Shown in pieces: positions 14,914-64,000 of a stretch of 64,000 nucleotides of DNA (within the stretch, counting starts at the first letter, position 1; the number at the start of each line of letters is the position of its first letter). The DNA is from Apoderus coryli (taxonomy: Eukaryota > Arthropoda > Insecta > Coleoptera > Attelabidae): contig OU452216.1 in NCBI GenBank assembly GCA_911728435.2, positions 8,940,342 through 9,004,341 on the forward strand. The letters run 5' to 3'. The notes under the pieces are model-generated. The model did no database searches and was not told the origin of the DNA. It saw only the letters and a list, made by a program, of their open reading frames with translations. A program made the position numbers and the translations under genes.

Positions 14914-17900
14914 TTACCTCATAGTGTGCCAACAAAAAACCGTTTTTCTTGGGCTGTGTATCATATCGTTCCAATGTTCTCTACCAGATCCAATTTCCTT
15001 AGGTCCCAGTGTACAACAGCCTATTAATGGATTGTTGCCTATCAAATCGTTACCTTGATCAAAAACTGAAATCTAAATGAAATATATTTATATAGAAAAT
15101 TGAAACTAACATATACGAAATAAAAAAAATCCATGACAGAGGTGGGATTTGAACCCACATCTCCCGATTACCGGTCATGTGTTTTACCAATTAAACTACC
15201 GTTGTACACATATATGGAGCTTCTTTAATACGTATTGCCGTGCTTAAAAATATCTTTATGAATAGCTAAATAAAGAATTAGAATAAAACAATACGAAACT
15301 TTAATACTGTTTGATATAATGAATGCACTTGCTCTCTATATAGCTCTGTCTATGTGACTACCTGTATTTATTTGTCCAAACGATCACAAACAAATTGTTC
15401 TATTATAAGGTAATTACATTCCCAATAATCAAATTACGATTGTTATTGCCTCACCTCGACTGCCGCATGTCCAACATTGGATGCAGGAAGATTAAAAGTC
15501 AATGCTTCATTCCAGACGGGATTGCAATTAGATTTTTTCGCTGATGTTTTCTTCTTTTTCATTTTCTTACCGTTGATTAATACGTAGACTTTGACGAAGG
15601 GATCTGAAAATTGATTTATTTATTATATTCCACAAGTTCAATGCAACGTTTATTTTTTAAATAGTTCCCAAATCGTCACAATTTTCATTAAAGTAAAGTC
15701 ATTAAAAAAAAAAAACAGATTTGTGTGTTATTCTTATGCAATCTATTCGCTTAAACAAGATACCAACTTACGTACTCATTATTCGCGCAATACTGTGATT
15801 AATCCGAAATCTATTTACGCCCGACACACGTGCAGATGCTTATTTAACCACACAATTTTTATTTTATTTTTGCTAAAATTCCATATTATTTTTATTTCAT
15901 TCCATTCAATTCATTCAAAATCTGGCAAAAATCAAGAAAAGATGAGAAATTCGGTGATGCCACACTTTACTTGAAGATTTTCACCATAAAAATATTGCAG
16001 CACAATAGATTTACACATGGAACATTGTTAGATACTTGATTTTCTAACAAATTTAATTTACTCGGCTCCCACAATAATATAACAAATATAAAACATTGTT
16101 TTGTCAAAAAGAACTACTAATTTATACTTATTTTTATTTTACTACTATTCACATGAACTAAATCTGCCAGAATTGTTTTTAAATGACACAAGTTGACACA
16201 TTTGGCATTCGAATCTTTGTTTTTTTACTATCCTCACCACACTGGGTCATAGAGATGCAAGAAATGTATCGCTATATTCTTTCTTTCATTATTAGAGATG
16301 CAAGAAATGTATCGATGTATTCTTTGGCCAATTTCCACCAGGAGGCCATAAAGCGTCATCGTCAGGGCAGTCGGGAATGGACTGATCACCAGTCTCGATA
16401 TGACACAATTTTGACGGGTGTCATTGTACAGAGTTGGGGACAGTTTTTTTTTAAATACCCAATTTTTTTGTTCGGTACTTGCGTAAGATCTGATTTAGAA
16501 TAATATTTTATCAAAAAAAACTACTAATTTATACTTATTTTTATTTTACTACTATTCACATGACCTAAATCTGGCAGAATTGTCTTTAAATGACACAAGT
16601 TGACACATTTGGCATTCGAATATTTGTTTTTTACTATCCTCACCACACTGGGTCATAGAGATGCAAGAAATGTATCGATATATTCTTTCTTTCATTATTA
16701 GAGATGCAAGAAATGTATCGATATATTATTTGGCCAATTTCCACCAGGAGGTCTTCATCAGGGAAGTAAGGAGTGGACCGATCACCAGTCTCTATATGAC
16801 ACAATTTTGACAGGTGTCATTGTACAGAGTTGGGGACAGTTTTTTTTTTAAATACCCAATTTTTTTGTTCGGTACTTGCGTAAGATCTGATTTAGAATCA
16901 AAATTGAACTTACCTATACATTCCTTATCTTGTGGCAAAAATAAATTTCTTGCTTTCACTAAATTAATTGTTAGTCGTTCAGCAGATGGAAGGTAGTTAA
17001 GTGATACGAGTATCTCTTGCAATTCTTCAGGTGGTTTCTTATTTTTCGTTATTTCACCCCATATCTCAACGTTATTGGCTAAATCAAACTCACCCATACT
17101 CATGATTACCTGTAACGGTAAAATTTCGCATAACACCACAGCATAGTAACGGTAGCAGCACTTCACTATATGCGCAATGGCAATTGCGCAACAATCATGT
17201 ACGTGAAATTAATCGGCATAGAGGCTAGCCTCCACATTAAACGCATGTGCAGTGAACGAAATACATGAAACATTATCATTGATAAGTACCTCTCCAATGA
17301 CGTCGTTCCTTGAGAATCTGTCGTAATCAAACACTTGCAGGACGAGGGTTTTCGCCTTCAAATCCTCGTGCGACACGGGAAATTTAAAGTGCTGATTGAA
17401 TAGCGGATTGCGATCGTTGCGATGGATAGTAGTTTGCCGTTTTCTCGAATCAACTTCCGGGAGCAGAGATATTCGTACATACGGATCATTGAAACCGCCT
17501 TGTTCACTTCCAGCGAGATCGTGTGCTATAAATTAAGAATTAAAAAGATGCCTTTTAAATGTTTTTAATACACCATACCTTCAATTAAATGTACAACCAA
17601 GTCCGATCTGTCGAAATCGTAGCTTAATCGGAAATGTAAACGTCCTAAACTAGCGCCATTTTTATCAGTCTCGCCAATAAATAATGGTCCATCTTTTCTC
17701 AAATAAAGATCAGGTTGAATTGCTCCTAATGGACTAGCTGGTGGTATCCCCGTTGTATCTGGCGTCCCTCCTCGCGAAGGCGGGATAAATAGCGGCGACA
17801 AACATCTGTAAATGTATTGACAATTTGTAGCGTTAAGTCGGAAAACATGTCTGGTAATAATAAACCTTGCTAAGCTAACAGTCCTAGACGACGCAGGCAC

Positions 17901-23900: not shown

Positions 23901-26900
23901 ACTGCCTGTTTCTGGTAGACTGGGGTAATACAGGTAAATTGTACCTCGAGTCGTCGGTAAAAACACTACTGAACTGGTTAGCGAGTGCATTGGCTATGTC
24001 AATTGGTCTAGTTATTGGTTCACCCGTAGTTTTTGCTTTCAGAGAAAAACTAGAAACGTTAGAATTTAGTGACCGTTTAATATAAGCATAGAATTTCTTA
24101 TTGCTACTCGCCGCCATCATCTAGCCTCCGATATCATTGTCTTTCGTTTATTGTTTTGCTGCCTATACGACAAATAGCTCGCGTCCGTTCTCAACCGTCT
24201 GTACTTGTGCCAGAGTCTCCTCTTCCTTTGTATTTCTCCGAAAATATTTCCGTTGATCCACGGCTTCTGCGAGTTTACCCTGCGGGGGCAGACTGGTACG
24301 TACTTCTGGATAGCCTCTTGAATAGCTCCGAGACATATTTCGATGTCATCAGTATCTTGCAAACTGCGGGACAAAAAATCATTTAACACGCATCCTCAAC
24401 ATCCTAGCGAGGGGTAAGACTCTGCCTTCATGAAACTCCGTAACAATACGAACCCTGCTTTTTCGTGATGATTGAAGTTTCCACAAATAATGTCAGGAAG
24501 ATATCATCATTTATATTGACCATGTCTTTGTAGGTGCTCCTTCCTACTTTCAAATAGTATTTAGCAGGATTTCAACCTCAATCCTGTCCTGGTGTTATTT
24601 ATCTGGCGGTCTCCAGCATTTCCGGGTAGAATTTTGTAAAATTGGCATCGTGGCCATTATATCGATTGTATTTATCTTGTTGGGATTACGTCATTACTGG
24701 CGAAAGAGAGGAGTCTGATAGGATCGGTCGATATCATATGCCCTTGTCCTTATTATATTCTTCACTACACTACACTCAAAAGTATATTGAAAATTATTTA
24801 TTTCAAAAAAGTTTTCGTCAGCTTTTCAATAAATTCCCAGAGAAACTTTTGTTGTTGTTCGCAGTTCGTTTGATTTACATTCCTTCATTTTTACGCATGA
24901 TTTTTGAGGTCTGAGGGGTTCCAAAATGCAGAAACCTCAAAAATTTAAATTTCTAGGCATTAACAAAATATTGCATTTATTCCAAAATTAGTGAAAATCG
25001 ATAAAGGAGTTTAGAATTTATTCCGGCAAAAACGACATTAATTTGAGAACTTTAGCGCACTGTAGAGGCAACACGAAGGAGCATTGGATAAAGGTCCCAA
25101 GTTGTGTAGTTCTGATAGTATAAGCTCGCGAAACTATCATCAAGAGAAAACTAATTGTCCTGCACATCCACCACCTGACCTGCAAATTGCAACCTATGGA
25201 CATCGGGGTATCATAAAAAACATAAAAGATCATTACCGAAACAGAATTGTTCACAAAATTGTTAATGACATTGATAAGAACCTTCCAGTACAAAAATTGA
25301 TTACCCTTAATGAATGTATAACCAAAGCCGTTAGAGTATCACGAATAGGAGGAAGAAGACGACTTCGATCTCGCTAGCTTAAAAAAACAATGAGCTATTC
25401 TACAAAAAAACTGCTACCGTCGACGCCGATTTTTTACTTGAAGATTTCTTTGAAATAAACACAACAGATCTCCCAACTGTATTTTTCTTTGTAACTACAT
25501 GGTAAGTTAAAAAAAAATTACATTCAAATTTCAATAAGTAAGCTTAAAAAAACAATGAGGTATTCTACAACAAAACTGCTACCATCGACGCCGATTTTTT
25601 ACTTGAAGATTTCTTTGAAATAAACACAACAGATCTCCCAACTGTATTTTTCTTTGTAACTACATGGTAAGTTAAAAAAAATTTACATTCAAATTTCAAT
25701 AAGTAAGCTTAAAAAAACAATGAGGTATTCTACAACAAAACTGCTACCATCGACGCCGATTTTTTACTTGAAGATTTCTTTGAAATAAACACAACAGATC
25801 TCCCAACTGTATTTTTCTTTGTAACTACATGGTAAGTTAAAAAAAAATTACATTCAAATTTCAATAAGTAAGCTTAAAAAAACAATGAGGTATTCTACAA
25901 CAAAACTGCTACCATCGACGCTGATTGTTTACTTGAAGATTTCTTTGAAATAAACACAACAGATCTCCCAACTGTATTTTTCTTTGTAACTACATGGTAA
26001 GTTAAAAAAAAAATTACATTCAAATTTCAATAAGTAAGCTTAAAAAAACAATGAGGTATTCTACAACAAAACTGCTACCGTCGACGCCGATTTTTTACTT
26101 GAAGATTTCTTTGAAATAAACACAACAGATCTCCCAACTGTATTTTTCTTTGTAACTACATGGTAAGTTAAAAAAAATTTACATTCAAATTTCAATAAGT
26201 AAGCTTAAAAAAACAATGAGGTATTCTACAACAAAACTGCTACCATCGACGCCGATTTTTTACTTGAAGATTTCTTTGAAATAAACACAACAGATCTCCC
26301 AACTGTATTTTTCTTTGTAACTACATGGTAAGTTAAAAAAAATTTACATTCAAATTTCAATAAGTAAGCTTAAAAAAACAATGAGGTATTCTACAACAAA
26401 ACTGCTACCATCGACGCCGATTTTTTACTTGAAGATTTCTTTGAAATAAACACAACAGATCTCCCAACTGCATTTTTCTTTGTAACTACATGGTAAGTTA
26501 AAAAAAAATTACATTCAAATTTCAATAAGTAAGGAAATATTTTGTTGTGTTTTATTGCGAAGATTTTGATATTATATTGTGTTCGTAATAACAATTACAA
26601 TCATTATTTAATTTGCTAATAGATCAATTATATTATTATATTAATTTTTCATAGTATAAGTACTAGTCATGCAATACCTTATAGACCTTTAGTTATTTTC
26701 AAAACTACTTTAGATATTTAAATGAAATTTAGCACGTTTGGGTAGATAATTTAGATACATCTTTTTACGTAACAATTATTATTTTATTCCACCAGTGGCG
26801 TGCGTACGGACACATCTTTGTACAAATTTAATGAAAAATATGGTGCGCCACTGATTTTTTTTAAGGCAAAAATTATTTCTCGAATCCTTGTTTAATTGAC

Positions 26901-42900: not shown

Positions 42901-44110
42901 ACAGGTGATTCAATGAAACGGTACGATTTCAAATAAACAAAAAAAACTGAAATAATATCTTTTTATTAGGTTTAATAAGAAAACCGTATACTACATAGAT
43001 GGAAATTAATATTTAAGTGAAGAAATATTCAGTTTTTGAAGATGATATTGGAAAGGTGGCCTCCATTGTGTCGGACACATTCTTGCAGCCGTAGTACAAA
43101 GCTGTTTAAGACATTGAGTAACATTTCTTGAGGTATTGCTTCCACTTCCTCGCGTATCCGTTCTTTCAAAGCCTCGATAGTTCTTGGGGGGTTAATTTGA
43201 AACACTTTCGACTTAAGATACCCCCAAAGAAAGTAGTCGCATAGGGAGAGGTCCGGACTACGAGGTGGCCAGGGAATATCGCCGTTTTTACTCATAAGAC
43301 GACCGGGGAACGATCTTCTTAGTAAATCCATTGACACTCGTGATGTGTGGCATGTTGCACCATCCTGTTGAAAGGTCGTGTTTTGATTTCTGTAATTCTC
43401 GATTGCCGGAAGAAAAAAATTATTTAACATCTGTCCGTAGCGATCAGAGTTTACTGTTACTGCGTGCCCATCCTCGTCCTCAAAAAAATAAGGTCCGATG
43501 ATGCCTAACGAAGAAATTGCACACCACACGGTTACCTTTTCTGAATATAAGGGTATTTCGTGTAATTGCCGCGGTTTATTGTCGGACCAATGGCGGAAAT
43601 TGTGTTTGCTGACATACCCACTGAGATGAAAGTGAGATTCATCACTCATCCAAAGATTATGCAGCAAGTTGTCGTTTTCATTAATACGCTCCAACATTTG
43701 TTCACAAAACCCTAGTCGGGTGGGATAATCTCGAACGTTAAGGGCTTGCACAATCTGGATTTTGTATGGATAGTAATGGAGTTCTTCATGCAAAATTCTG
43801 CTCGTAGTGGTATAGCTTAATCCCAGGTTTAAGCTCTGGTGTGCGAGCAGTTTTAACACTGCCACCTCTTTTCTGTGATGTTGAACCACAAATGGTAGTG
43901 TAAACGAAACGCTCGTTGTACACGCACAAAACTTTCACCATTTTTGTAATAAGCTTTCACAGCAAATGCGCGTTGTTCACCCGACCACTTCTCCATGATA
44001 ACTAAACTTCCCACTCTCTAGATTCCCAAAGTTTACGTCGCAAGACCGCGGTTCCTCTATTGTTCCGCCCGCAGCGTTGCCAAATCGTGCCGTTTCACTG
44101 AATCACCCGT
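42901..44110 (-). mobile_element. 1.2-kb mariner-like transposon with TIRs
   Basis: The ends are ACAGGTGATTCAATGAAACG and, inverted, ACGGGTGATTCAGTGAAACG, continuing with similar inner bases. TA flanks both ends (42899-42900 and 44111-44112). It contains a decayed transposase on the minus strand. Confidence 0.92.
43029..43996 (-). pseudogene. IS630/Tc1-mariner transposase with internal deletion
   Basis: The N-terminal helix-turn-helix start MEKWSGEQRAFAVKAYYKN is at 43996, but after about 45 codons the frame breaks. The catalytic part is open from 43889 to 43029: SRILHEELHYYPYKIQ, first D in WMSDESHFHLSGYV, second D in TFQQDGATCHTS, third in WPPRSPDLSLCDYFLWG. Relatives have about 60 more residues between the two parts, so the linker is largely deleted. 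Probably not functional, though all three acidic residues remain. Confidence 0.88.
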
Positions 44111-44896: not shown

Positions 44897-44911
44897 AAAC
44901 ATTCATTATAT

Positions 44912-45196
44912 TCTGTAAACTATCTCTAATTATATCGCTTTAAAATAAAATATTGCTGTGATATGTGGCAAAATTTGGGTACATATTATTTGTATTGAAA
45001 CAAAGATATTGTAGAAAGGCTTACTCGGTATACCTACTTATTGTTAGAAGAAAGTCAGTACCAGCATTTCTTTTTGTTTATGCTCAACATTATCATCAGG
45101 GAATTGAAACAGAATATTTAATCAACTACTTACCACCATTCAGAATTAATTATTTAAACACCTTATTAGTTGTTACTACTCACTTGTTAGATTATT
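44912..45196. repeat. Flank of inverted gene copy, left part
   Basis: Near-identical to the reverse complement of about 60890-61180, including an accidental open frame starting MAKFGYILFVL on opposite strands in the two places. It continues at 45780 after a MITE interruption. This is the 3' flank of the micro-exon gene copies. Confidence 0.8.
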
Positions 45197-45779
45197 AGGG
45201 AGTTAAGGCAAAACCAAGGACGTATTCGTATCTCCATACGTAAACATGAGATTTTGGTTATGTTTACACTAGATAAGCAGTCATTCAAAATAGAGTTAAG
45301 GTGCCATCCAATACGTATCGTATATGCGGAAGGTAGAGATAACACTTTACTTGAGAAAAAGACTTTTAGATTTTTCTATTTCCATTTACTATGTTGTTAA
45401 CATGATTGTTTTTTTAATCATTAACCAAATACCTATAGGTATATTTTATTATGTATATCTATAAATAATAACAGAAAAATGTTTATAATTGTTACAAAAT
45501 AAACTACTACTGCTAATAATAATAAAGTATTTATTGCAAAATAGCTTACGCTAATTTTTAATATAGATCGACAGTTTTTGTTGTTCTATTCCAGATATTC
45601 GTACAAGTTCATGTAATTCCGACAACAATCGGTTCAATACGTTTAAGTATATGATACGCGTAGAAGTACATATGTTTATGGCCTTCGTATCGTTAAACGT
45701 ATCATAAATTTAGAGAGCGCATGCGTATATGTCAAAAGATACGTTTACGTATACGTCATTGGCGTTGCCTTAACTCCCT
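45197..45779. mobile_element. 583-bp MITE at a defined empty site
   Basis: TIR begins AGGGAGTTAAGGCA on both ends, with further partial pairing (ACGTAT). The sister copy near 60886-60905 has no insertion and reads GATTATTGTTG in the same orientation; here it reads GATTATT, element, ATTGTTG. The target duplication is therefore 3 bp (ATT), which suits a PIF/Harbinger-like element. Confidence 0.85.
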
Positions 45780-45834
45780 ATTGTTGTATATACCTAAACG
45801 TATAATAAAAAATTCTTCTGTTCATACCAAATGT

Positions 45835-45840
45835 TTTATT
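45835..45840 (-). promoter_or_regulatory. Poly(A) signal of inverted micro-exon gene
   Basis: AATAAAACATTT on the minus strand; the same word follows the plus-strand copy at 60838. Confidence 0.5.
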
Positions 45841-46275
45841 ATTTAATCACAAGAAATAAAAAAAATAACATATTGAAATTCGATAGGTAGGTACATAAGT
45901 AAAAAAATAAAAAAATAATATAATTAAATAATTAAATAAAAAATTATTATAGTAAATAAATTCTAGGTACTTCTTTCTTAGGCCTGTCTAATCATTGTCG
46001 GCTGAAAAACAAAACATAAATAATATCATTGAATGTCAAGCATTTTGGTGTCCGACATAATCAGATTCAGTTGTAATTTTGGTTTAATTAGTTAAGGTTG
46101 GTTATCCCTCTCTTAAAACAATCTTCTCTGTGCGACCAATGACAATGATGGATTTGAAACAGAATGTGTATTGCGGCATCTAGCAAAACTATTTGCTTGA
46201 GCAAAGTTAACACAAAATACGATTTTTTCAACATGAATCGAATTATGAAAGTTTCTTGAGAAATAACCTAAACAG

Positions 46276-46354
46276 GGCCGGGGTAGGTGGTGTACTTATT
46301 AAAAATAACTGGATGATGGGTAAATTGCCTAACATGCAGAGGCCAAAAAAAAAA
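46276..46354 (+). mobile_element. Short SINE 3' end with target duplication
   Basis: Runs from GGCCGGGGTAGG to GCAGAGGCC plus an A tail, flanked by AAATAACCTAA(A)CAG on both sides. The same insertion with the same flanks is present, inverted, at about 54486-54590 and 60230-60330, so it predates the duplications of this locus. The 3' end matches the SINE at 4366-4576. Confidence 0.75.
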
Positions 46355-46504
46355 AAATAACCTAACAGAATTATATTCAATACTGTATTAGATGTAGGTT
46401 ATTTACGTAATATTATTACTTTGAACATTTTTGGCTTTTAACTTACTTATTTTTTTTTATGCAGCGGGGTGTTTTTTCTTATTAGACCTCTCCTTATTAG
46501 TTCT

Positions 46505-47160
46505 GAAATAAATATAACATATTATATAATTAACTATGAATTATTTAATACTTTAACAATTTGATAGAGGATGATGCATTTAAAAATCATACAGAAGTAG
46601 GTAACGTATGAATTTAATAGATACTTGTAAGTTACCTATAGCGTTAGAAATATGCATAATACAATGCTATTATTACCTATACATATAGGAAATTTAAATA
46701 TTCTTGAAATAAAAGTCGACCTCCACACAATAAATTTAATAAATATCCTCAACAAATTACATTTGTCACCATACATGTTTCGCAGCTCCGGGCCGCATCA
46801 TCAGTGGTTATATGAGATTCTTACGAAAAGCTATGTTATACTAGTTAGTACATATTATTTTTGGGAATTTATTTATTAACTCTAGAAGTAAGATTGTATA
46901 TATTATTTTCAATTGCACCAAAATGATTTTAACTTTTAAACTTACCATTGTGTGAAAAAAATTTTATTCTCTCAAGTCAAGAAGCTATTTCCTTCTTATA
47001 TTTATGTTTTCTCCTAAAACTTCTAATGGAAGGCGTATATAATATCATTGTAACATGCAATCACCTGCTTCCACGCTTTCTAACAATTCAATTCAATATT
47101 TAGAAAACTCCACAAAGAATCACCACATCGTCCTACGTAATTATTTCAAATTGCACCTAC
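46505..47160. other. Intron of inverted micro-exon gene
   Basis: AT-rich with no recognised element; the open frame at 46652-46879 looks accidental. Confidence 0.4.
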
Positions 47161-47279
47161 CTTGTCTCCACTTTTCTAGTTCATGCAAACGCCTTTGCAG
47201 TTCATCCAAACGCCTTTCCAGCGATCGAATTCTTTCATCTAGGGTTTGTAACATTTTTATTAGGAAATACAGGATAGTG

Positions 47280-47660
47280 TTATTCACGCCATATGACGCG
47301 GAAGAGTGTGACTAAACTATTTAATTTCCTAAAAGTTTTATTCATGGGTTCTATAAGAATGATTTATGGCTACATTTTAAAAATATTGTGAATCTATACA
47401 AGATGCCCCAAATATAAGAAATAATAATAATAATTTATTTCCAAAAGAAAAACAAATACATGGAAGAAAAATGCCTTCATAAATAATACCTACCTAAGGT
47501 TGTTACAAAAAAAAAAAAAAAGATAACAAATAAGACAGCAATTAATCTTTTGAAAATAAAAGAAAAGTCCTGTCTTCGCAAAAGATCTCTCGCTCTCAAA
47601 ACAACATCCAGTTGACCATAGTTTTTTTTTTAATGGAATGCCCTGTATATGAATATATTT
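47280..47660. repeat. Upstream segment of inverted copy
   Basis: Matches in reverse complement the region upstream of the plus-strand start exon at 57467 (about 57090-57450), including TTATTTATGGCTACATTTT-like and GGGGCATCTTG words. Likely shared promoter-proximal sequence. Confidence 0.75.
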
Positions 47661-47818
47661 TTAAATTCCCCGTTCAAAATAAATCTAACTTTCATTAAAG
47701 TACATCTCACCTAAACCTGACAGTTTTTTAAATATTTTAATTTTTATAAAAATATAGACATAATTTGAATGAAAAAATTCACACCTATTCGATTTGTTCT
47801 TTTTAAGCAAATCTGAGC

Positions 47819-50600: not shown

Positions 50601-50673
50601 TCCGAAACCAGGGATCGAACCAGAGACCTTTAGATCTTCAGTCTAACGCTCTTTCAACTGAGCACCCAACCCT
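50601..50673 (-). pseudogene. tRNA-Phe(GAA)-like sequence
   Basis: The reverse complement has GCTCAGTTGAAAGAGC, the anticodon arm AGACTGAAGATCT (anticodon GAA), and GGTTCGATCC, matching animal tRNA-Phe from D arm to T arm. The 5' acceptor strand (GGTTGGG) does not pair with the 3' side (TTTCGG), so it is probably a pseudogene or SINE head. Confidence 0.75.
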
Positions 50674-51458: not shown

Positions 51459-54400
51459 ATGTTACAAACCGTAGATGAAAGATTAAAATCGATCGAACAA
51501 CGTATACAGAAGATGGAGCAGTGGAAAGAAGGTAGGTGCAACTTGAAATAATTTGACGTCTGAAAAACAGGACAACGATCCAGGGAGTCTAAATATATCA
51601 CCAATACTACCTGTGGGTAATTCGTTTTATTTTTCAGAAACAAAAATCCCCGCAATATCAAAGAACGAAAATGGTTCCGTTAGATGGGGGCAGAGGGGTG
51701 TTAAAGTAAGGAACATACAATAGTACGTCTGAAAAACAGGACAACGATCCAGGGAGTCTAAATATATCACCAATACTACCTGTGGGTAATTCGTTTTATT
51801 TTTCAGAAACAAAAATCCCCGCAATATCAAAGAACGAAAATGGTTCCGCTAGATGGGGGCAGAGGGGTGTTAAAGTAAGGAACATACAATAGTCCGTCTG
51901 AAAAACAGGACAACGATCCAGGGAGTCTAAATATATCACCAATACTACCTGTGGGTAATTCGTTTTATTTTTCAGAAAACAAAAATCCCCCTTGTATCAA
52001 AGAACGAGGATGGTTCCCCTTGATGGGGGCAGAGGGGTGTTAAAGTAAGGAACATACAATAGTACGTCTGAAAAACAGGCCAACCATCAAGGGGCACAAA
52101 GTAAAGGACGGGGACGGCTCCGTATTCACCCCGTGAAGCGGAATACACCAAAGAAAAAGGGGTGCTTTAAGAAATATAAAACAAGAAAAACCAAGTAGGA
52201 GTTCGATGACCACGGTGGTTTGTCGGGGACGAGGGCGGCCTTGGTTAAACAAACTTTTAACCTTTAATTTATATGTATATGATCTCTTACGGATCCCTAA
52301 GTTTGTTAAAGTCACATACAAATTTAGCAATCGTAATTACAGGTATATCCCATTAAGCGAGTTTTGGCAACATCGTCCCCTTTAACAACATGATTTTTAA
52401 ACTGAAAAACGAAAACATTCAGTCTTGTTTAGCAGAGGTACCTAAATTAAAATTAGTTTCAATTTCAATACTTATATCCAAACAAAAAGTAAGTTTTTAA
52501 ATTTATTTATTTTTTATTTAGAAGTGAAATTGTTTCCAGTAGTTGGTTTCAGCTAATATGATCTCTTACGGATCCCTAAGTTTGTTAAAGTCAGATACAA
52601 ATTTAGCAATTGTAATTACAGGTATATGCCATTAAGCGAGTTTTGGCAACATCGTCGCCTTTAACAACATGATTTTTAAACAACTCAAAAACGAAAACAT
52701 TCAGTCTTGTTTAGAATAATAATAGTAGTGTATAAAAAACAAAAAGTAAGTTTTTAAATTTATTTTTTTTTTATTATAGAAGTGAAATTGTTTCCAGTAG
52801 TTGGTTTCTGCTGATTTCCAGAAACATATGAATATATTATTTTTTACTCATAAAAATAGAAAATTGAATACATATGAAAATTGAAGTATCAATATAGAAT
52901 AAAAATGGTGCTTCTTTACCATTAAATTTGTTCCTATATTATATATATATATATTGAAAAACGTATGGAGAAAATGAAGGAGTGGAAGACACAACAAGGT
53001 AGGTGCGTGCAACTTGAAATAATTTGACGTCTGAAAAACAGGACAACCATTCAGGGAGTGTAAATATATCACCAGTCACACTCTTCCGCGTCGTATGGCG
53101 TGAATAACACTATCCTGTATTTCCTAATAAAAACGTTACAAACCGTAGATCAAAGAATGAGAACATTGGAAAAAAAAATGGAAGAACTACTGACATATTT
53201 TAACATGTTTTAAATACACTTTTATTGCGTTATTTTCACTATCCTGTATTTCCTTCTTCTTGTTTTCAGGATAAATGGATCATAGGGCGAAGAGGAGGTG
53301 AGAGGGGGTTGTAAATTCCTCCTCACTCGCCCGGATCCGGAACCATTCAGGCAGTATAAATATATCACCAGTACATGTGAGTAACTTGTTAATTGTATGT
53401 TATTATTGCCCTTCTTAATTTAACTCCCAACCGACTGTCGTAGGCCCATAAGACTTTCTTAATTTGTAATAATAATAATATCGATTTTGTTATATTCATT
53501 CGTAAAATTCTCGATAACGGTTAAATTTAGGTACCTATATCATTCCATCCTTTATTTCTATTTGTTGTATCATTTGAATAACGTGATTTTGATATTTATT
53601 TTTCAGAAAGATAAAAAACCCATCTACAGAAGAACAAAAATGGTGCCCCTGGATGGGGGTAGAGGTGTAGTAAGGTAAGGATAATAACAGTAAATTCAAA
53701 TAACAACTTCGGGGCGGCCGAAAAAAATTAAACCGGAAAGAAAAACGCCGAAGAGGCCCCCGGGTACCTATATCATTCCATCCTTTATTTCTATTTGTTG
53801 TATCATTTGAATAACGTGATTTTGATATTTATTTTTCAGAAAGATAAAAAACCCATCTACAGAAGAACAAAAATGGTGCCCCTGGATGGGGGTAGAGGTG
53901 TAGTAAGGTAAGGATAATAACAGTAAATTCAAATAACAACTTCGGGGCGGCCGAAAAAAATTAAACCGGAAAGAAAAACGCCGAAGAGGCCCCCGGGTAC
54001 CTATATCATTCCATCCTTTATTTCTATTTGTTGTATCATTTGAATAACGTGATTTTGATATTTATTTTTCAGAAAGATAAAAAACCCATCTACAGAAGAA
54101 CAAAAATGGTGCCCCTGGATGGGGGTAGAGGTGTAGTAAGGTAAGGATAATAACAGTAAATTCAAATAACAACTTCGGGGCGGCCGAAAAAAATTAAACC
54201 GGAAAGAAAAACACCAAAGAGGCCCCCGGGCCGTCCTAAAAAAAATAAAACGAGTAAGTTAAAAGCCAAAAATGTTTAAGACCAACAAAGGATAATATGT
54301 TATATTTATTTCAGAAGTTATGACACTACGACCCCCGGGGCGGCTTAAAAAACCAAAACCAGAACGGAAAACGCCAAAAAGACCCCCGGGGCGCCCGAAA

Positions 54401-54875
54401 AAGGTTAAAAAGAGTAAGTTAAAAGCCAAAAATGTTCAAAGTAATAATATTACGTAAATAACCTACATCTAATACAGTATTGAATATAATTCTGTTAGGT
54501 TATTTTTTTTTTTGGCCTCTGCATGTTAGGCAATTTACCCATCATCCAGTTATTTTTAATAGACCACCTACCCCGGCCCTGTTTATGTTATTTCTCAAGA
54601 AACTTTCATAATTCGATTCATGTTGAAAAAATCGTATTTTGTGTTAACTTTGCTCAAGCAAATAGTTTTGCTAGATGCCGCAAAACACATTCTGTTTCAA
54701 ATCCTTCATTGTCATTGGTCGCACAGAGAAGATTGTTTTAAGAGAGGGATAACCAACCTTAACTAATGAAACCAAAATTACAACTGAATCTGATTATGTC
54801 GGACACCAAAATGCTTGACATTCAATGATATTAATTATGTTTTGTTTTTCAGGGGACGATGACGCTGCTCAATAA
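51459..54875 (+). CDS. Small coiled-coil/AT-hook protein, HMGA-like (model)
   Basis: Model from three micro-exons sharing phase-1 junctions: start exon 51459-51531 (73 nt; MLQTVDERLKSIEQRI onward), AT-hook exon 54315-54413 (99 nt; TLRPPGRLKKPKPERK and TPKRPPGRPKKVKK), terminal exon 54853-54875 (DDDAAQ, stop). Total 195 nt, 64 residues. It has an N-terminal coiled coil ending in a Trp, two AT-hook cores with the PGR core, and an acidic tail. That order resembles HMGA proteins, which bind the minor groove of AT-rich DNA, but HMGA lacks a coiled coil. Seen: open frames, splice words, matching phases. Inferred: joining, expression, nuclear role. Terminal exons at 54984 and 55115 are equally compatible alternatives. 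Confidence 0.4.
51638..52044 (+). repeat. 169-bp unit array of 68-nt exons
   Basis: Exon-like blocks at 51638-51705, 51807-51874 and 51976-52044, each after TTTATTTTTCAG and ending at GTAAGG. The first two read KQKSPQYQRTKMVPLDGGRG then VLK; the third has one extra base and is out of frame. The spacers are near-identical and contain CTAAATATATCACC. A TAA stop overlaps each donor in frame. Confidence 0.7.
52079..52198 (+). pseudogene. Broken copy of the basic exon
   Basis: Duplicate of 50770-50958 with CCT changed to TTT and GAG changed to TAG, stopping the frame after 39 codons. The surrounding 50.73-51.25 kb region is duplicated as a block at 52.04-52.56 kb. Confidence 0.6.
52290..52820. 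repeat. Variable-tract cassettes, copies 2 and 3
   Basis: Two further copies of the cassette described at 50960, with different central tracts (TAGCAGAGGTACC... and TAGAATAATAATAG...) ending at the same AAGTAAGTTTT. Confidence 0.75.
52953..52998 (+). pseudogene. 5'-truncated start exon
   Basis: IEKRMEKMKEWKTQQ ending in phase 1 at CAAG|GTAGGTGC. Its 5' half, including the ATG, is replaced by a TA microsatellite. Confidence 0.5.
53133..53213 (+). pseudogene. Start exon with ACG in place of ATG
   Basis: Has the usual 5' sequence (CTATCCTGTATTTCCTAATA) but ACG where other copies have ATG, then LQTVDQRMRTLEKKMEE and a stop without a donor. Confidence 0.5.
53270..53314 (+). other. Candidate terminal exon
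   Basis: After CTTGTTTTCAG: DKWIIGRRGGERGL then stop. Faintly like the DGGRG end of the 68-nt exons. A TATAAATA box follows at about 53357. Low support. Confidence 0.25.
53531..54253 (+). repeat. 233-bp unit array 1 (three 68-nt exons)
   Basis: Exons at 53607-53674, 53840-53907 and 54073-54140, all identical: KDKKPIYRR then TKMVPLDGGRG and VVR. The spacer holds a fragment of an AT-hook exon (GGGGCGGCCGAAAAAAATTA). In the last unit that fragment runs on to its own donor at 54253 (RPPGRPKKNKT). The unit therefore fuses a 68-nt exon with part of an AT-hook exon. Confidence 0.85.
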
Positions 54876-55256: not shown

Positions 55257-55355
55257 AAGTAATGACACCCAGGCCACCGGGGCGGCCCAAAAAACCTAAA
55301 ATTGAAAGAAAAACGCCGAAGAGGCCCCCGGGCCGGCCAAAAAAAATAAAAACAA
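55257..55355 (+). CDS. AT-hook exon, intact
   Basis: 99 nt, phase 1 in and out: VMTPRPPGRPKKPKIERK then TPKRPPGRPKKIKT. Two AT-hook cores. Acceptor TATTTATTTCAG, donor AA|GTAAGTT. It lies after the three terminal exons of its cluster, so it would have to join a later one (60.6-60.8 kb) or read through to KLKAKNVQSTYN and stop. Confidence 0.5.
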
Positions 55356-55387
55356 GTAAGTTAAAAGCCAAAAATGTTCAAAGTACA

Positions 55388-55641: not shown

Positions 55642-55747
55642 GCAAGTGCAACTTGAAAGAATTAGACGTCTGAAAAACAGGACAACCATCCAGGGAGTCT
55701 AAATATATCACCAATACTACCTGTGGGTAATTCGTTTTATTTTTCAG

Positions 55748-55982
55748 AAAAATGAACCGAACTATATAAGAACCTGAATGCTCCCGCAGGACGGCGGAAG
55801 GGGTATAATTAGGTAAGGATCATACAATAGTACGTCTGAAAAACAGAACAAGGATCCAGGGAGTCTAAATATATCACCAATACTACCTGTGGGTAAGTTG
55901 TTTTATTTTTCAGAAAAAAACTTCACCTAAATATAAAAAAAACCAAAATGGTGCCTCTGGATGGTGGCAGGGGCGTGATAAG
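55748..55982 (+). pseudogene. Two decayed 68-nt-type exons
   Basis: 55748-55812 has a TGA in place of a Lys codon (RT, stop, MLPQDGGRGIIR). 55914-55982 has one extra A and is out of frame before MVPLDGGRG-like sequence. Confidence 0.6.
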
Positions 55983-55984
55983 GT

Positions 55985-56500
55985 AATTACAGGTATATGC
56001 CATTAAGCGAGTTTTGGCAACATCGTCGCCTTTAACAACATGATTTTTAAACAACTCAAAAACGAAAACATTCAGTCTTGTTTAGCAGTCAATTTAATAG
56101 TAGTATATACCTATATAAAAACAAAAAAGTATAAAAAACAAAAAGTAAGTTTTTAAATTTATTTTTTTTTTATTATAGAAGTGAAATTGTTTTCAGTAGT
56201 TGGTTTCAGCTAATATGATCTCTTACGGATCCCTAAGTTTGTTAAAGTCAGATACAAATTTAGCAATTGTAATTACAGGTATATGCCATTAAGCGAGTTT
56301 TGGCAACATCGTCGCCTTTAACAACATGATTTTTAAACAACTCAAAAACGAAAACATTCAGTCTTGTTTCTGGAAGAAGAGAACAATAATACCTATATAA
56401 TATAATATACTTAATTAGTTGGATATAAAAAGTAAGTTTTTAAATTTATTTATTTTTTATTATAGAAGTGAAATTGTTTTCAGTAGTTGGTTTCTGCTGA
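55985..56500. repeat. Variable-tract cassettes, copies 4 and 5
   Basis: Two tandem copies sharing TTTAACAACATGATTTTTAA and CATTCAGTCTTGTTT on the left and AAGTAAGTTTTTAAATTT on the right, with unrelated 50-60-base AT-rich middles. Confidence 0.75.
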
Positions 56501-57466: not shown

Positions 57467-57560
57467 ATGTTACAAACCGTAGATGAAAGAATGAGAGCAC
57501 TGGAGAAAAAAATCGAAGCAATGGAGAAGAGGCTTAATGAATACGATCAGTGGAGACAAG
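57467..57560 (+). CDS. Coiled-coil start exon, four-heptad form
   Basis: 94 nt: MLQTVDERMRALEKKIEA, then one extra heptad and YDQWRQ, ending in phase 1 at AAG|GTAGGTGC. Exactly 21 nt (one heptad) longer than the 73-nt form. Preceded by the conserved leader CTATCCTGTATTTCCTAATA. Confidence 0.5.
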
Positions 57561-57666
57561 GTAGGTGCAACTTGAAATAATTAGACGTCTGAAAAACAGG
57601 ACAACGATCCAGGGAGTCTAAATATATCACCAATACTACCTGTGGGTAATTCGTTTTATTTTTCAG

Positions 57667-57903
57667 AAAGAAAAATCCCCAGTATATGTAAGGACTAAGA
57701 TGGTGCCTCTAGATGGAGGTAGGGGAGTGCTAAGGTAAGGATCATACAATAATACGTCTGAAAAACAGGACAACGATCCAGGGAGTCTAAATATATCACC
57801 AATACTACCTGTGGGTAATTTGTTTTATTTTTCAGAAAGAAAAATCCCCAGTATATGTCAGGACTAAGATGGTGCCTCTGGATGGGGGTAGGGCGGTGGT
57901 AAG
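57667..57903 (+). repeat. 169-bp units with two intact 68-nt exons
   Basis: Exons 57667-57734 (KEKSPVYVRTKMVPLDGGRG then VLR) and 57836-57903 (same but GGRAVVR). Both keep TTTTTCAG and AG|GTAAGG. The spacer matches that of the 51.6-52.0 kb array. Confidence 0.75.
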
Positions 57904-58028
57904 GTAAGGATCATACAATAATACGTCTGAAAAACAGGACAACGATTCAGGGAGTCTAAATATATCACCAGTCACACTCTTCGGCGTCGTATGGCGTGAA
58001 TAACACTATCCTGTATTTCCTAATAAAA

Positions 58029-58101
58029 ATGTTACAAACCCTAGATGAAAGAATTCAATCACTGGAACGAAGAATCGAGGAAATAGAAAAATGGAAAAAA
58101 G
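58029..58101 (+). CDS. Coiled-coil start exon, three-heptad form
   Basis: 73 nt: MLQTLDERIQSLERRIEE then IEKWKK, phase 1 donor AAG|GTAGGTGC. Its downstream intron runs straight into the 233-bp array. The AT-hook exon of this cluster (60058) carries a one-base deletion, so the chain may be broken here. Confidence 0.5.
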
Positions 58102-58112
58102 GTAGGTGCAAC

Positions 58113-59996
58113 TTATATCATTCCATCCTTTATTTCTATTTGTTGTATCATTTGAATAACGTGATTTTGATATTTATTTTTCAGCAAGACAAAAAGCCAA
58201 TATACAAACGGACGAAAATGGTGCCGCTCGATGGGGGACGGGGAATACTAAGGTAAGGATAATAACAGTAAATTCAAATAACAACTTCGGGGCGGCCGAA
58301 AAAAATTAAACCGGAAAGAAAAACGCCGAAGAGGCCCCCGGGTACCTATATCATTCCATCCTTTATTTCTATTTGTTGTATCATTTGAATAACGTGATTT
58401 TGATATTTATTTTTCAGAAAGACAAAGCGCCAATATATAGAAGAACCAAAATGGTTCCGTTAGATGGGGGTAGGGGAGTAGTGAGGTAAGGACAATAACA
58501 GTAAATTCAAATAACAACTTCGGGGCGGCCGAAAAAAATTAAACCGGAAAGAAAAACGCCGAAGAGGCCCCCGGGTACCTATATCATTCCATCCTTTATT
58601 TCTATTTGTTGTATCATTTGAATAACGTGATTTTGATATTTATTTTTCAGAAAGACAAAGCGCCAATATATAGAAGAACCAAAATGGTTCCGTTAGATGG
58701 GGGTAGGGGAGTAGTGAGGTAAGGACAATAACAGTAAATTCAAATAACAACTTCGGGGCGGCCGAAAAAAATTAAACCGGAAAGAAAAACGCCGAAGAGG
58801 CCCCCGGGTACCTATATCATTCCATCCTTTATTTCTATTTGTTGTATCATTTGAATAACGTGATTTTGATATTTATTTTTCAGCAAGATAAAGCCCCAAT
58901 TTACAAACGGACGAAAATGGTGCCGCTCGATGGGGGACGGGGAATACTAAGGTAAGGATAATAACAGTAAATTCAAATAACAACTTCGGGGCGGCCGAAA
59001 AAAATTAAACCGGAAAGAAAAACGCCGAAGAGGCCCCCGGGTACCTATATCATTCCATCCTTTATTTCTATTTGTTGTATCATTTGAATAACGTGATTTT
59101 GATATTTATTTTTCAGCAAGATAAAGCCCCAATTTACAAACGGACGAAAATGGTGCCGCTCGATGGGGGACGGGGAATACTAAGGTAAGGATAATAACAG
59201 TAAATTCAAATAACAACTTCGGGGCGGCCGAAAAAAATTAAACCGGAAAGAAAAACGCCGAAGAGGCCCCCGGGTACCTATATCATTCCATCCTTTATTT
59301 CTATTTGTTGTATCATTTGAATAACGTGATTTTGATATTTATTTTTCAGCAAGATAAAGCCCCAATTTACAAACGGACGAAAATGGTGCCGCTCGATGGG
59401 GGACGGGGAATACTAAGGTAAGGATAATAACAGTAAATTCAAATAACAACTTCGGGGCGGCCGAAAAAAATTAAACCGGAAAGAAAAACGCCGAAGAGGC
59501 CCCCGGGTACCTATATCATTCCATCCTTTATTTCTATTTGTTGTATCATTTGAATAACGTGATTTTGATATTTATTTTTCAGCAAGATAAAGCCCCAATT
59601 TACAAACGGACGAAAATGGTGCCCCTGGATGGGGGACGGGGAATACTAAGGTAAGGATAATAACAGTAAATTCAAATAACAACTTCGGGGCGGCCGAAAA
59701 AAATTAAACCGGAAAGAAAAACGCCGAAGAGGCCCCCGGGTACCTATATCATTCCATCCTTTATTTCTATTTGTTGTATCATTTGAATAACGTGATTTTG
59801 ATATTTATTTTTCAGAAAGACAAAGCGCCAATATACCAACGCACAAAAATGGTTCCCCTCGATGGGGGTAGGGGGGTGCTGAGGTAAGGATAATAACAGT
59901 AAATTCAAATAACAACTTCGGGGCGGCCGAAAAAAATTAAACCGGAAAGAAAAACACCAAAGAGGCCCCCGGGCCGTCCTAAAAAAAATAAAACGA
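58113..59996 (+). repeat. 233-bp unit array 2 (eight 68-nt exons)
   Basis: Exons start at 58185, 58418, 58651, 58884, 59117, 59350, 59583 and 59816, each 68 nt. Variants in order: QDKKPIYKR/ILR, KDKAPIYRR/VVR twice, QDKAPIYKR/ILR four times, KDKAPIYQR/VLR. All share TKMVPLDGGRG. The 165-base spacers are practically identical to one another and to array 1. The last unit continues into an AT-hook fragment with a donor at about 59997. Entry is phase 0 and exit phase 2, or a stop at AGG TAA. Confidence 0.88.
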
Positions 59997-60057
59997 GTAA
60001 GTTAAAAGCCAAAAATGTTTAAGACCAACAAAGGATAATATGTTATATTTATTTCAG

Positions 60058-60155
60058 AAGTTATGACACCACGACCCCCGGGGCGGCTTAAAAAACCAAA
60101 ACAGAACGGAAAACGCCAAAAAGACCCCCGGGGCGCCCGAAAAAGGTTAAAAAGA
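60058..60155 (+). pseudogene. AT-hook exon with one-base deletion
   Basis: 98 nt against 99 in its sister at 54315: AAACCAGAACGG has become AAACAGAACGG, so the second AT-hook is out of frame. Splice words are intact. Confidence 0.65.
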
Positions 60156-60597
60156 GTAAGTTAAAAGCCAAAAATATTCAAAGTACATAATATTACGTAA
60201 ATAACCTACATCTAATACAGTATTGAATATAATTATGTTAGGCTATTTTTTTTTTATTGGCCTCTGCATGTTAGGCAATTTACCCATCATCCAGTTATTT
60301 TTAATACACCACCTACCCCGGCCCTGTTTAGGTTATTTCTCAAGAAACTTTCATAATTCGATTCATGTTGAAAAAATCGTATTTTGTGTTAACTTTGCTC
60401 AAGCAAATAGTTTTGCTAGATGCCGCAAAACACATTCTGTTTCAAATCCTTCATTGTCATTGGTCGCACAGAGAAGATTGTTTTAAGAGAGGGATAACCA
60501 ACCCTAACTAATGAAACCAAAATTACAACTGAATCTGATTATGTCGGACACCAAAATGCTTGACATTCAATGATATTAATTATGTTTTGTTTTTCAG

Positions 60598-60793
60598 GGG
60601 ACGATGACGCTGCTCAATGAATTTTATTTATTTTTTATTTTTTAATGAGTTTTATTTGTTATTTTTATTACTATATTTTGCTTTGTTTTGAACACTTACT
60701 TATGTCGGACACCAAAATGCTTGACAATCAATGATATTATTTATGTTTTTTTTTTCAGAGGACAATGACTGTGATGCTGCCGGCAATGCCTGA
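60598..60793 (+). other. Two alternative terminal exons
   Basis: 60598-60620 encodes DDDAAQ with TGA; 60759-60793 encodes DNDCDAAGNA with TGA. Both are in phase 1 after T-rich acceptors. Confidence 0.6.
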
Positions 60794-62100: not shown

Positions 62101-62929
62101 GAAGGTGTAACTTGAAATAATTAGACTATTATGTTTGTGGTGATTCTTTGTAGAGTTTTCTAAATATTTCGCATTTTTTGTTTCAAAGAAGCCTCAACAA
62201 AAGTAAAAGTTTCCCTGCGCCTGACTAAAACACATGGCATATTTTATTTTACACTTGTTTTGATTCTGCGAAATCCGTGCCCAACCTTAACCTGTTTTCG
62301 TTGAAAATTAGACTGAAATTGAGGTAATCAATTGATAAATTCTTTTTACAACCAGCAAAGTGACTCAATACACGAAAAATACCAAGTCTTGTCTCGCTAA
62401 ACTAGGCTACAAGTTCTATTATGCCGAAGAGGTGAAATACCGCAGAAACAAGGGACGTTCTCTGCTAATCTTAACTCAATAAACCAAATTACAATGTGTT
62501 GGCTGAAGGCCGAATTGAAACTAACATAACAGTTCAAACACTTACAGTTTACAGTATCTCCAACATTACGGCATCGATTGGGATGAGATGAGCCCTGGCA
62601 GTGTGGCATGTATATCGGTCAGTTGACGGTACAGGCACTCGGGATGACGGTTTTCTCCGTGGATACCATAAACCACATGATTAAATCCAGCAGGAAGTCG
62701 CGTCCATCACTACCATTAGTTCTTAATCCAGGTTTGATGACTGCCTAAAAGATAAATATTTTTAGTGCTCAAAGTGATTGAGTGTATATGAAACTGTTAC
62801 TCGTTTTTCTTTACAAAAACCATTAATTTTTTGTATAACATCACACTTTTGTTTAATTTATAATAAGAACAGAACGTTTCGTGCCACTATTTAGCAAAGG
62901 CGTATAATATTTTCCATTAAACTTGTATG
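62101..62929. other. Unassigned stretch before satellite
   Basis: Slightly less AT-rich around 62400-62720. No gene supported. Confidence 0.35.
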
Positions 62930-64000
62930 AAGATGTGCCCGTACACACGCCACTGGTGGAAGTAAAATAATAATTTTTACTTAAAAATTTGTATCCAAAT
63001 TATCTACCCAAACGTGCCAAATTTCATTAAAATATCTAAAGTAGTTTTAAAATATTAACAATTTTAAAAATTGATTGATATTATTTTGTGGTAGTCTATC
63101 TGCCTCTGTTTTATTTTTTTACTTGCAAACGAAGTCTCAAATGCAAAAAACCAAACAGCCTTTTTTTGTTGTAAATTGAACAAGGACTCCAGAAATAATT
63201 TTCGCTTCCAAAAAATCAGAGGCGTACCATATTTCCATTAAACTTGTGCGAAAATGTGCCCGTACGCACGCCACTGGTGGAAGTAAAATAACAATTTTTA
63301 CTTAAAAATTTGTACCCAAATTATCTACCCAAACGTGCCAAATTTCATTAAAATATCTAAAGTAGTTTTAAAAATATTAACAATTTTGGAATTGATTGAT
63401 ATTATTTTGTGGTAGTCTGTCTGCCTCTGTTTTATTTTTTTATTTGCAAACGAAGTGTCAAATGCAAAAAAGCAAAGAGCCTTTTTTTGTTGTAAATTGA
63501 ACAAGGATTCCAGAAATAATTTTCACTTCCAAAAAATCAGAGGCGTACCATATTTCCATTAAACTTGTGCGAAGATGTGCCCGTACGCACGCCACTGGTG
63601 CAAGTAAAATAACAATTTTTACTTAAAAATTTGTATCCAAATTATCTACCCAAACGTGCCAAATTTCATTAAAATATCTAAAGTAGTTTTAAAAATATTA
63701 ACAATTTTGGAATTGATTGATATTATTTTGTGGTAGTCTGTCTGCCTCTGTTTTATTTTTTTACATGCAAACGAAGTGTCAAATGCAAAAAAGCAAAGAG
63801 CCTTTCTTTGTTGTAAATTGAACAAGGATTCCAGAAATCATTTTCACTTCCAAAACAATCAGTAGCGTACCAAATTTCCATTAAACTTACGCGAAGATGT
63901 GCCCGTACGCACGCCACTGGTGCAAGTAAAATAACAATTTTTACTTAAAAATTTGTACCCAAATTATCTACCCAAATGTGCCAAATTTCATTAAAATATC
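62930..64000. repeat. 321-bp satellite, continues past the window
   Basis: The anchor GTGCCCGTAC recurs at 62935, 63256, 63577 and 63899. Monomers differ at few sites and carry CGCACGCCACTGGTG and TTATCTACCCAAACGTGCC. The array is cut by the window end. Confidence 0.92.

Follow-up and report, generated by a model that had tools for sequence, protein, structure and literature searches.

Concerted evolution is expected to homogenise repeats over their whole length, and selection to guard the differences in amino acids between them. The SSSGP genes of the Hessian fly are described as showing the same reversal of this expectation as is reported here; a concerted homogenisation of their non-coding parts was proposed, and their dN/dS is above 1 (Chen et al., 2010, PMC2955719). 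In snake three-finger toxins, the process named ASSET is reported to switch segments in exons and not in introns, by patches, and its mechanism is treated as unsettled in these reports (PMC2474615, PMC2711939). Primate L/M opsin genes are described as having homogenised introns and diverged exons, with a synonymous divergence that is not below the nonsynonymous one (PMC3213168, PMC3924837).

The locus described here combines near-random synonymous codons, near-identical peptides and near-perfect introns, the reverse of the usual pattern, and thereby separates two forces that are usually confounded, namely peptide-level selection and recombination barriers. Among the papers listed in literature searches there is none on this locus, or on an AT-hook family with such arrays, which does not prove that it is absent from print.

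Exons and spacers of the 233-bp arrays

The window (the whole 64,000-nucleotide stretch analysed) contains two arrays of 233-bp units, with three units in array 1 and eight in array 2, for which TRF reports a period of 233 and 8.0 copies. Each unit is made of a 68-nt exon and a 165-nt spacer, the exon being predicted from splice-like signals and codon pattern, and bordered by TTTTTCAG and GTAAGG. In array 2 the exons start at 58185 + 233 x i. The units and exon alleles, all on the + strand, are as follows.

53530..54230, +, array 1, three 233-bp units (TRF, column comparison)
starts 53607, 53840, 54073, +, array 1 exons D, mutually identical (column comparison)
58113..59973, +, array 2, eight 233-bp units (TRF, column-by-column comparison)
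58185..58252, +, exon A' (QDKKPIYKRTKMVPLDGGRGIL; TTTTTCAG/GTAAGG borders, codon pattern)
58418..58485, +, exon B (KDKAPIYRRTKMVPLDGGRGVV), with C at intron position +8 (column comparison, codon analysis)
58651..58718, +, exon B, second identical copy (column comparison)
58884..58951, +, exon A (QDKAPIYKRTKMVPLDGGRGIL), identical copy 1 of 3 (column comparison)
59117-59184 and 59350-59417, +, exon A, identical copies 2 and 3 (column comparison)
59583..59650, +, exon A'', differing from A by synonymous changes at 42 and 45 only, both matching D
59816..59883, +, exon C (KDKAPIYQRTKMVPLDGGRGVL; column comparison, codon analysis)

An earlier note on this DNA had given the coordinates and units of the 233-bp array, all of which hold, and had described the exons as strongly different. 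They do vary, at 25 of 68 positions, but not every exon is different: the 11 units carry six alleles (D three times, B twice, A three times, and A', A'' and C once each). The runs of identical units (three A, two B and three D) show turnover of whole units. A KMVPLDGGRG pattern occurs 15 times in the window against 0 expected, and 0 times in viral contigs, a collection that may lack records from the genome to which the window belongs.

Over the 11 units, the 25 variable exon sites (8 at first, 2 at second and 15 at third codon positions) compare with 7 variable positions among the 165 of the spacer, six of which lie at array edges. These edge variants are at -71, in the first unit of array 2, and at 141, 144 and 159-161, in the final unit of both arrays, these two units having the same letters. 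The sole internal spacer variant, at +76, lies 8 nt past the donor and is confined to the two B units. A Fisher test gives a nominal P of 7e-10 when 25/68 is set against 7/165, and of 2e-14 when it is set against 1/165, but these values treat related units as independent and are therefore descriptive. Along the unit, no site varies from -70 to 0, variation runs from the first exon base to base 66, and after +76 nothing varies onward to 140. With all 11 units aligned, this is an abrupt step and no smooth decay, which bears out the earlier claims that change is confined between TTTTTCAG and GTAAGG, and that the spacers are identical or nearly so, also against array 1. The exons at 58185 and 58418 indeed differ at 16 of 68 bases, with more than half of the changes synonymous (about 9, against 7 nonsynonymous).

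Between the two arrays, the exons differ at 15-18 of 68 positions and the spacers at 0-1 of 165, or 5-6 when a last unit is set against an inner one and the five edge positions come in. Over 639 aligned bases, the regions downstream of arrays 1 and 2 are separated by only 7 substitutions, with 4 gap columns in addition. The exon differences must therefore predate, or have outpaced, the duplication that produced these copies.

The exons share a constrained reading frame, [KQ]DK[KA]PIY[RKQ]RTKMVPLDGGRG[VI][VL], and the peptides of the 233-type vary at residues 1, 4, 8, 21 and 22. Among D, A', B, A and C, pS is 0.48-0.85 and pN 0.04-0.14 in 9 of the 10 pairs, set against near-identical spacers; the tenth is the close pair A'/A (pS 0.15, pN 0.05). 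D and B differ by one residue, with 13 synonymous changes spread over the whole exon.

Within the spacer of every 233-bp unit, at the place corresponding to 58285-58342, there is an apparent remnant of an AT-hook-like exon that lacks an acceptor. The complete remnant stretch, 59919-60022, is 86.5% identical to 55278-55381, and on this resemblance the 233-bp unit may have arisen by duplication from the upstream intron into the AT-hook-like exon.

The exon/intron contrast across the gene family

The contrast between exons and introns is a trait of the gene family and extends beyond the array, since a similar contrast is found in the 169-bp arrays, the AT-hook-like exons, exon 1 and the terminal exons, located as follows.

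51556..52093, +, 169-bp array with exons F1 (51638), F2 (51807) and F3 (51976, longer by one base)
57585..57970, +, 169-bp array with exons E1 (57667) and E2 (57836)
55666..55986, +, 169-type pair of degenerate exons, G1 (55748, in-frame stop) and G2 (55914)
58029..58101, +, first exon of the gene that contains array 2 (MLQTLDERIQSLERRIEEIEKWKK), with exit phase 1 and a sequence that looks coiled-coil-like by eye
51459..51531, +, exon 1 paralogue with intact start
57467-57560 (+) and about 47161-47254 (-), exon 1 paralogues with intact start
54315..54413, +, AT-hook-like exon after array 1 (VMTLRPPGRLKKPKPERKTPKRPPGRPKKVKK)
55257..55355, +, AT-hook-like exon paralogue (VMTPRPPGRPKKPKIERKTPKRPPGRPKKIKT)
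60058..60155, +, AT-hook-like exon after array 2, lacking one base that is present in 54315-54413
60598..60620, +, terminal exon encoding an acidic tail; similar copies near 54853, 55115, 60759 and 46001 (-)
44909..47665, -, inverted paralogue of the 57.0-61.2 kb gene

The 169-bp arrays at 51.6 and 57.6 kb contain cassette exons homologous to those of the 233-type, set in unrelated introns, and homology between the two unit types extends over the exon and about 12 nt beyond each of its ends. F1 and E1 differ at 18 of 68 exon positions, and at 1 of 90 and 2 of 60 positions in the upstream and downstream introns. Across all 10 pairs of F1-F3, E1 and E2, exon differences number 1-19 of 68, against 1-5 of 90 upstream (edge bases counted) and 1-4 of 60 downstream. 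The downstream count rises to 9-12 in comparisons with F3, because an AT-hook-like stretch comes after that last unit. Residues D2 and I6 are present in the 233-type exons and absent from the E and F exons, so that exchange between the 233- and 169-type arrays finds no support here.

Taking both array types together, pS is 0.48-0.85 in 20 of 21 pairs of cassette exons, with pN 0.04-0.22, the exception again being A'/A. Identical codons at shared residues fall within random expectation for 27 of 28 pairs of eight lineages (lower-tail fraction 0.11-0.97), the close pair F1/F3 standing apart; the expectation was the pooled usage of the same exons, which somewhat favours agreement, and the near-duplicates A', A'', E2 and F2 and the degenerate G1 were set aside. 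The codons of the eight lineages are thus no more different than random, with no excess avoidance of shared synonyms. That the cassette lineages diverged long ago under strong protein-level constraint seems to me slightly better than an even proposition, judged jointly with the origin of the arrays proposed below.

In exon 1, five copies were aligned and the four with an intact start compared. All six pairs show 1-3 differences in the 58 bases that precede the ATG, 0-1 in the 24 bases of codons 1-8, and 9-15 in the 27 bases of codons 9-17. Over the first 20 bases of the intron there are 0-1 differences in the three pairs without the 58-kb gene and 5-6 in the three pairs with it, the array at 58 kb joining about 13 bases into that intron. 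Over codons 1-17, pN is 0.13-0.26 and pS 0.29-0.58 in the six pairs, indicating a weaker protein constraint than in the cassettes, and hence a constraint that is unequal among exon classes. In neither the cassette exons nor exon 1 (codons 1-17, 6/6 pairs) does dN/dS exceed 1.

Four copies of the AT-hook-like exon were aligned, and the two full-length open ones (54.3 and 55.3 kb) differ at 25 of 99 positions (pS 0.77, pN 0.08), with 4 of 27 and 0 of 30 differences in the flanks. Of six aligned terminal exons five were compared, and in 9 of the 10 pairs their first 24 bases, which are partly noncoding because several copies have a stop within them, show 10-14 differences against 0-3 of 46 in the preceding intron. 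The tenth pair is a recent duplicate (54.8/60.5 kb), with 1 exon and 0 intron differences.

The locus is best described, with the same slight preference and jointly with the origin proposed below, as a cluster of related small genes, each with a predicted coiled-coil exon, cassette copies, an AT-hook-like exon and an acidic tail. Exon 1 reads MLQT(V/L)DER..., and by eye it looks charged and like a short coiled coil, with no evident signal peptide. The exons at 54 and 55 kb contain RPPGR(P/L)KK-like motifs of the putative AT-hook type. A 68-nt exon shifts the frame when two are joined, so at most one cassette is expected per mRNA, and a single one would be included.

The exit phase of exon 1 is 1; that of the cassette is 2 in its constrained frame, and the AT-hook-like exon needs phase 1. 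Entry into the cassette is in phase 0 with the acceptor TTTTTCAG, or in phase 1 with an alternative AAAG/CAAG acceptor four bases on, made of letters that exons A, B, C, D and E have and the F exons lack. I made 20 joins in silico, combining 10 cassette exons of the 51-, 57- and 58-kb genes with the two acceptors; the 54-kb AT-hook exon served as stand-in for the 57-kb gene, and D was left out, there being no exon 1 with intact start at array 1. None of the 20 yielded a clean gene that includes both the cassette and the AT-hook exon. With the first acceptor, F1 and F2, and no others, stay open through the AT-hook-like reading, and then with the cassette outside its constrained frame. When the 58-kb exon 1 is followed directly by the AT-hook and terminal exons of 54 kb, the reading stays open as far as the tail. 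After array 2, the one-base deletion at 60102 shifts the reading frame of the AT-hook-like exon. These loci may be partly decayed.

Database searches returned no protein homologue: a query composed of pieces of exon 1, cassette, AT-hook exon and tail gave none at E <= 10 among 12 candidates, a 51-kb-type product gave seven candidates of which none qualified, and one composite query matched no Pfam family. As the same protein database holds arthropod proteins, this absence is informative, though limited by the short exons and guessed joins.

The inverted paralogue gene at 44909-47665 is 90-97% alike in its three largest matching blocks, and no cassette exon was found on the - strand. Elsewhere in the window are a satellite-like array at 8768-13262 (409 bp, 11 copies, 98% match) and other tandem arrays at 879-2544 (284 bp), 25376-26533 (165 bp) and 62898-64000 (321 bp). 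A transposase-like ORF at 43029-43889 (-) has 1339 relatives in the protein database, the best among the matches listed having 89% identity. Among the best 120 of these 1339, the named organisms are Nilaparvata lugens, which is the closest at 62%, Trichonephila clavipes, Blattella germanica and Parnassius mnemosyne, and these matches hint that the DNA comes from an arthropod. Rfam tRNA-like matches at 15141-15199 (-, 40 bits) and 50608-50663 (-, 34 bits) are unrelated to the arrays, and since ARAGORN reports no tRNA gene in the window, they are possibly SINE-derived. The ORF at 6098-6460, read by eye, presumably includes a ClpB-like ATPase segment.

Origin of the arrays

Further evidence on mechanism comes from five close exon pairs, which together show 22 differences, 7 of them adjacent where 1.59 are expected (P 0.00015), and only 0-1 differences in each measured intron stretch (60-165 nt). 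A and A' differ only within positions 6-18 (span P 0.003), and A and A'' only at 42 and 45, with the letters of D at both (span P 0.087). These clustered differences fit and point to short templated patches, to which multi-nucleotide mutation could contribute. Only A'' has a possible donor in the window, namely D, and two changes 3 nt apart could be due to chance.

I also simulated arrays of eight units under simple models, counting as success an exon mean of at least 12 with a spacer mean of at most 2. The settings varied conversion rate, tract length, selection for peptide diversity and mismatch rejection, and in none of them did conversion start in introns only. Divergence in situ from identical units succeeded in none of 24 settings (two runs each) and none of 5 further settings (four runs each): runs without peptide selection mostly collapsed to one peptide type, leaving nothing measurable, and under strong rejection the spacers diverged too. 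Starting from four observed lineages with identical spacers and running to 0.003 substitutions per site, 10 of 12 settings (three runs each) gave exon means of 10-17 with spacer means of up to 1.3, and in the other two, where conversion was high and rejection absent, much exon diversity disappeared (3-5 and 7-11). Runs of this imported start as far as 0.05 substitutions per site ended with an exon mean of at least 12 and a spacer mean of at most 2 in none of 24 settings. The same thresholds were reached in 0 of 24 settings when the spacers started 3% mutated, so that homogenisation of the spacers alone went unreproduced. The simulations and the observed pattern together make the arrays best read as young assemblies of old exons.

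I therefore lean, with somewhat more confidence than doubt, to arrays that are young and were put together from old exon lineages, through an exchange that was segmental and limited by homology, with unit turnover keeping the introns alike. Units with identical introns would multiply and vanish by unequal exchange in the 165-bp spacers, and this would keep the spacers alike and form runs of one allele, such as AAA, BB and DDD. Exon sequence that had already diverged would have entered the common intron frame by short, patch-like ectopic recombination or conversion, its partners being other family members homologous only over the exon and about 12 nt of splice-site sequence per side. Between exons about 20% apart, mismatch-based rejection would probably slow homogenisation, and the introns would keep homogenising. 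The analysis establishes the pattern, its occurrence in several exon classes of the family, the constraint on the protein, the clustering into patches and the failure of the simulated in-situ models; how old the exchange is and which way it went, donors beyond the window, heteroduplex rejection and the use of a single cassette per mRNA I infer.

The earlier note had judged ordinary tandem duplication inadequate, and the failure of the in-situ simulations agrees with this. A fuller model in situ, in which peptide selection blocked exon conversion in an old array while introns were homogenised, as proposed for primate L/M opsins and perhaps with conversion initiated mainly in introns, is unlikely but retains some appeal. 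Published accounts of gibbon L/M opsins describe exons made more divergent than introns by intron conversion and selection (PMC3213168), and a divergence peak limited to one exon is documented (PMC3924837); the 233-type peptides do, moreover, vary at the five residues listed above. Against it, the single residue that separates D from B comes with 13 synonymous sites, and the spacer is identical up to 9 nt before the codon of that residue. With selection for peptide diversity and free conversion, the simulated exon means are at most 5.2 and those of the exon middle 0-1.2 of 36, unlike the 8 differences seen between A and B at positions 25-60.

The presence of the contrast in several exon classes, and not in the array alone, opens another reading, which I consider quite unlikely: a coding-only process that would rewrite the family's exons, synonymous sites included, with introns and 5' flanks fixed, either by RNA-templated exchange or rewriting in the animal, or through an arms race at the mRNA, for example with small RNAs.

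The D/B comparison supports the earlier claim that positive selection does not explain the pattern, as far as selection on the peptide is concerned; the claim would fail if selection acted on the mRNA. Selection on the mature mRNA, for escape from homologous small RNAs or avoidance of transcript pairing, would favour synonymous change in exons. It predicts saturated synonymous change in several exon classes that stops at the splice sites, both of which are seen, and the inverted gene paralogue at 44.9-47.7 kb could be invoked in its favour. I nevertheless hold it to be very unlikely, as the 5' flank and codons 1-8 are conserved, although the codons at least should be in the mRNA, synonymous codons are no more different than random, and no inverted repeat of at least 14 nt was found in 57950-60300.

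The exchange of whole exons from diverged donors, for example by gene conversion with spliced cDNA, had been offered in the earlier note as a fitting mechanism. The adjacent differences favour templated exchange, but A/A' and A/A'' give no support to whole-exon exchange, nor, less firmly, do other features support spliced cDNA. A swap exactly between splice sites would account for the sharp borders at TTTTTCAG and GTAAGG, and ORFs that read by eye as reverse-transcriptase-like are present elsewhere in the window. However, the patches are smaller than the exon, change in exon 1 starts mid-exon with the 5' part conserved, and the intron base at +8 (a single base) travels with exon B. As the array types share about 12 nt into each intron, exchange between DNA copies would end near the same place, and I find conversion by spliced cDNA strongly doubtful.

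Introns could also be identical because they are functional, for example as docking or selector elements of a mutually exclusive splicing like that of Dscam, with which an exon length permitting at most one cassette per mRNA would agree. This is highly improbable: the 169-type arrays have unrelated introns, one spacer when folded was no better than shuffles (z +1.17), no inverted repeats of at least 14 nt were found in 57950-60300, and part of the spacer appears to be an AT-hook-like exon remnant that differs by about 14% between copies elsewhere. An assembly artefact, with units of different loci stitched together or spacers collapsed, is scarcely credible even in a region this repetitive, since one exon-spacer junction per read suffices, mis-ordered units would keep the combination of different exon and same spacer, and exon classes outside the array show a similar contrast.

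Comparison with known systems

The SSSGP genes too are described as clustered insect genes with one inverted among tandem copies, and species-specific families are among their listed traits (PMC2955719). In both, the 5' flank, N-terminal codons and introns are conserved and the rest of the coding region is diversified. According to the pairs tabulated for SSSGP, however, dN/dS is above 1 in ten of ten and mature regions barely align (PMC2955719), whereas the dN/dS of the cassettes is far below 1, their synonymous sites are saturated and they are tandem copies of 23 codons.

As in the ASSET reports, segment replacement here is clustered (7 adjacent differences against 1.59), leaves the introns unaffected (0-1 differences) and has an unsettled mechanism. 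The toxin segments are described as becoming unrelated peptides; no such radical change is found in the cassette exons, where patches are mostly synonymous or conservative. With regard to the L/M opsins, the reported synonymous divergence in gibbons is about 6%, whereas it is near saturation here, within the cassettes of one array. A divergence peak at functional sites that decays around them, as in the opsins, is not seen: the D/B changes span the whole exon, with a step at the splice site.

Dscam-type arrays likewise consist of tandem homologous exons, and here the exon length forbids joining two in frame. The introns of Dscam diverge and its selectors are short, whereas whole introns are identical here, and no selector/docking complementarity was found, either as inverted repeats of at least 14 nt in 57950-60300 or in the one spacer folded (z +1.17). 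The cassette effectors KQY/KHI of the pea aphid resemble this family in their small exons, conserved N-terminus and divergent remainder, but in the account given of them they are not described as tandem copies of one exon, and intron identity goes unmentioned there (PMC7495047).

The signature itself is thus already known, and what is new here is the combination of saturated synonymous sites and strong peptide constraint in tandem 23-codon cassettes. In so compact an array, the long-standing question of how homogenisation can reach introns and spare their exons becomes testable.
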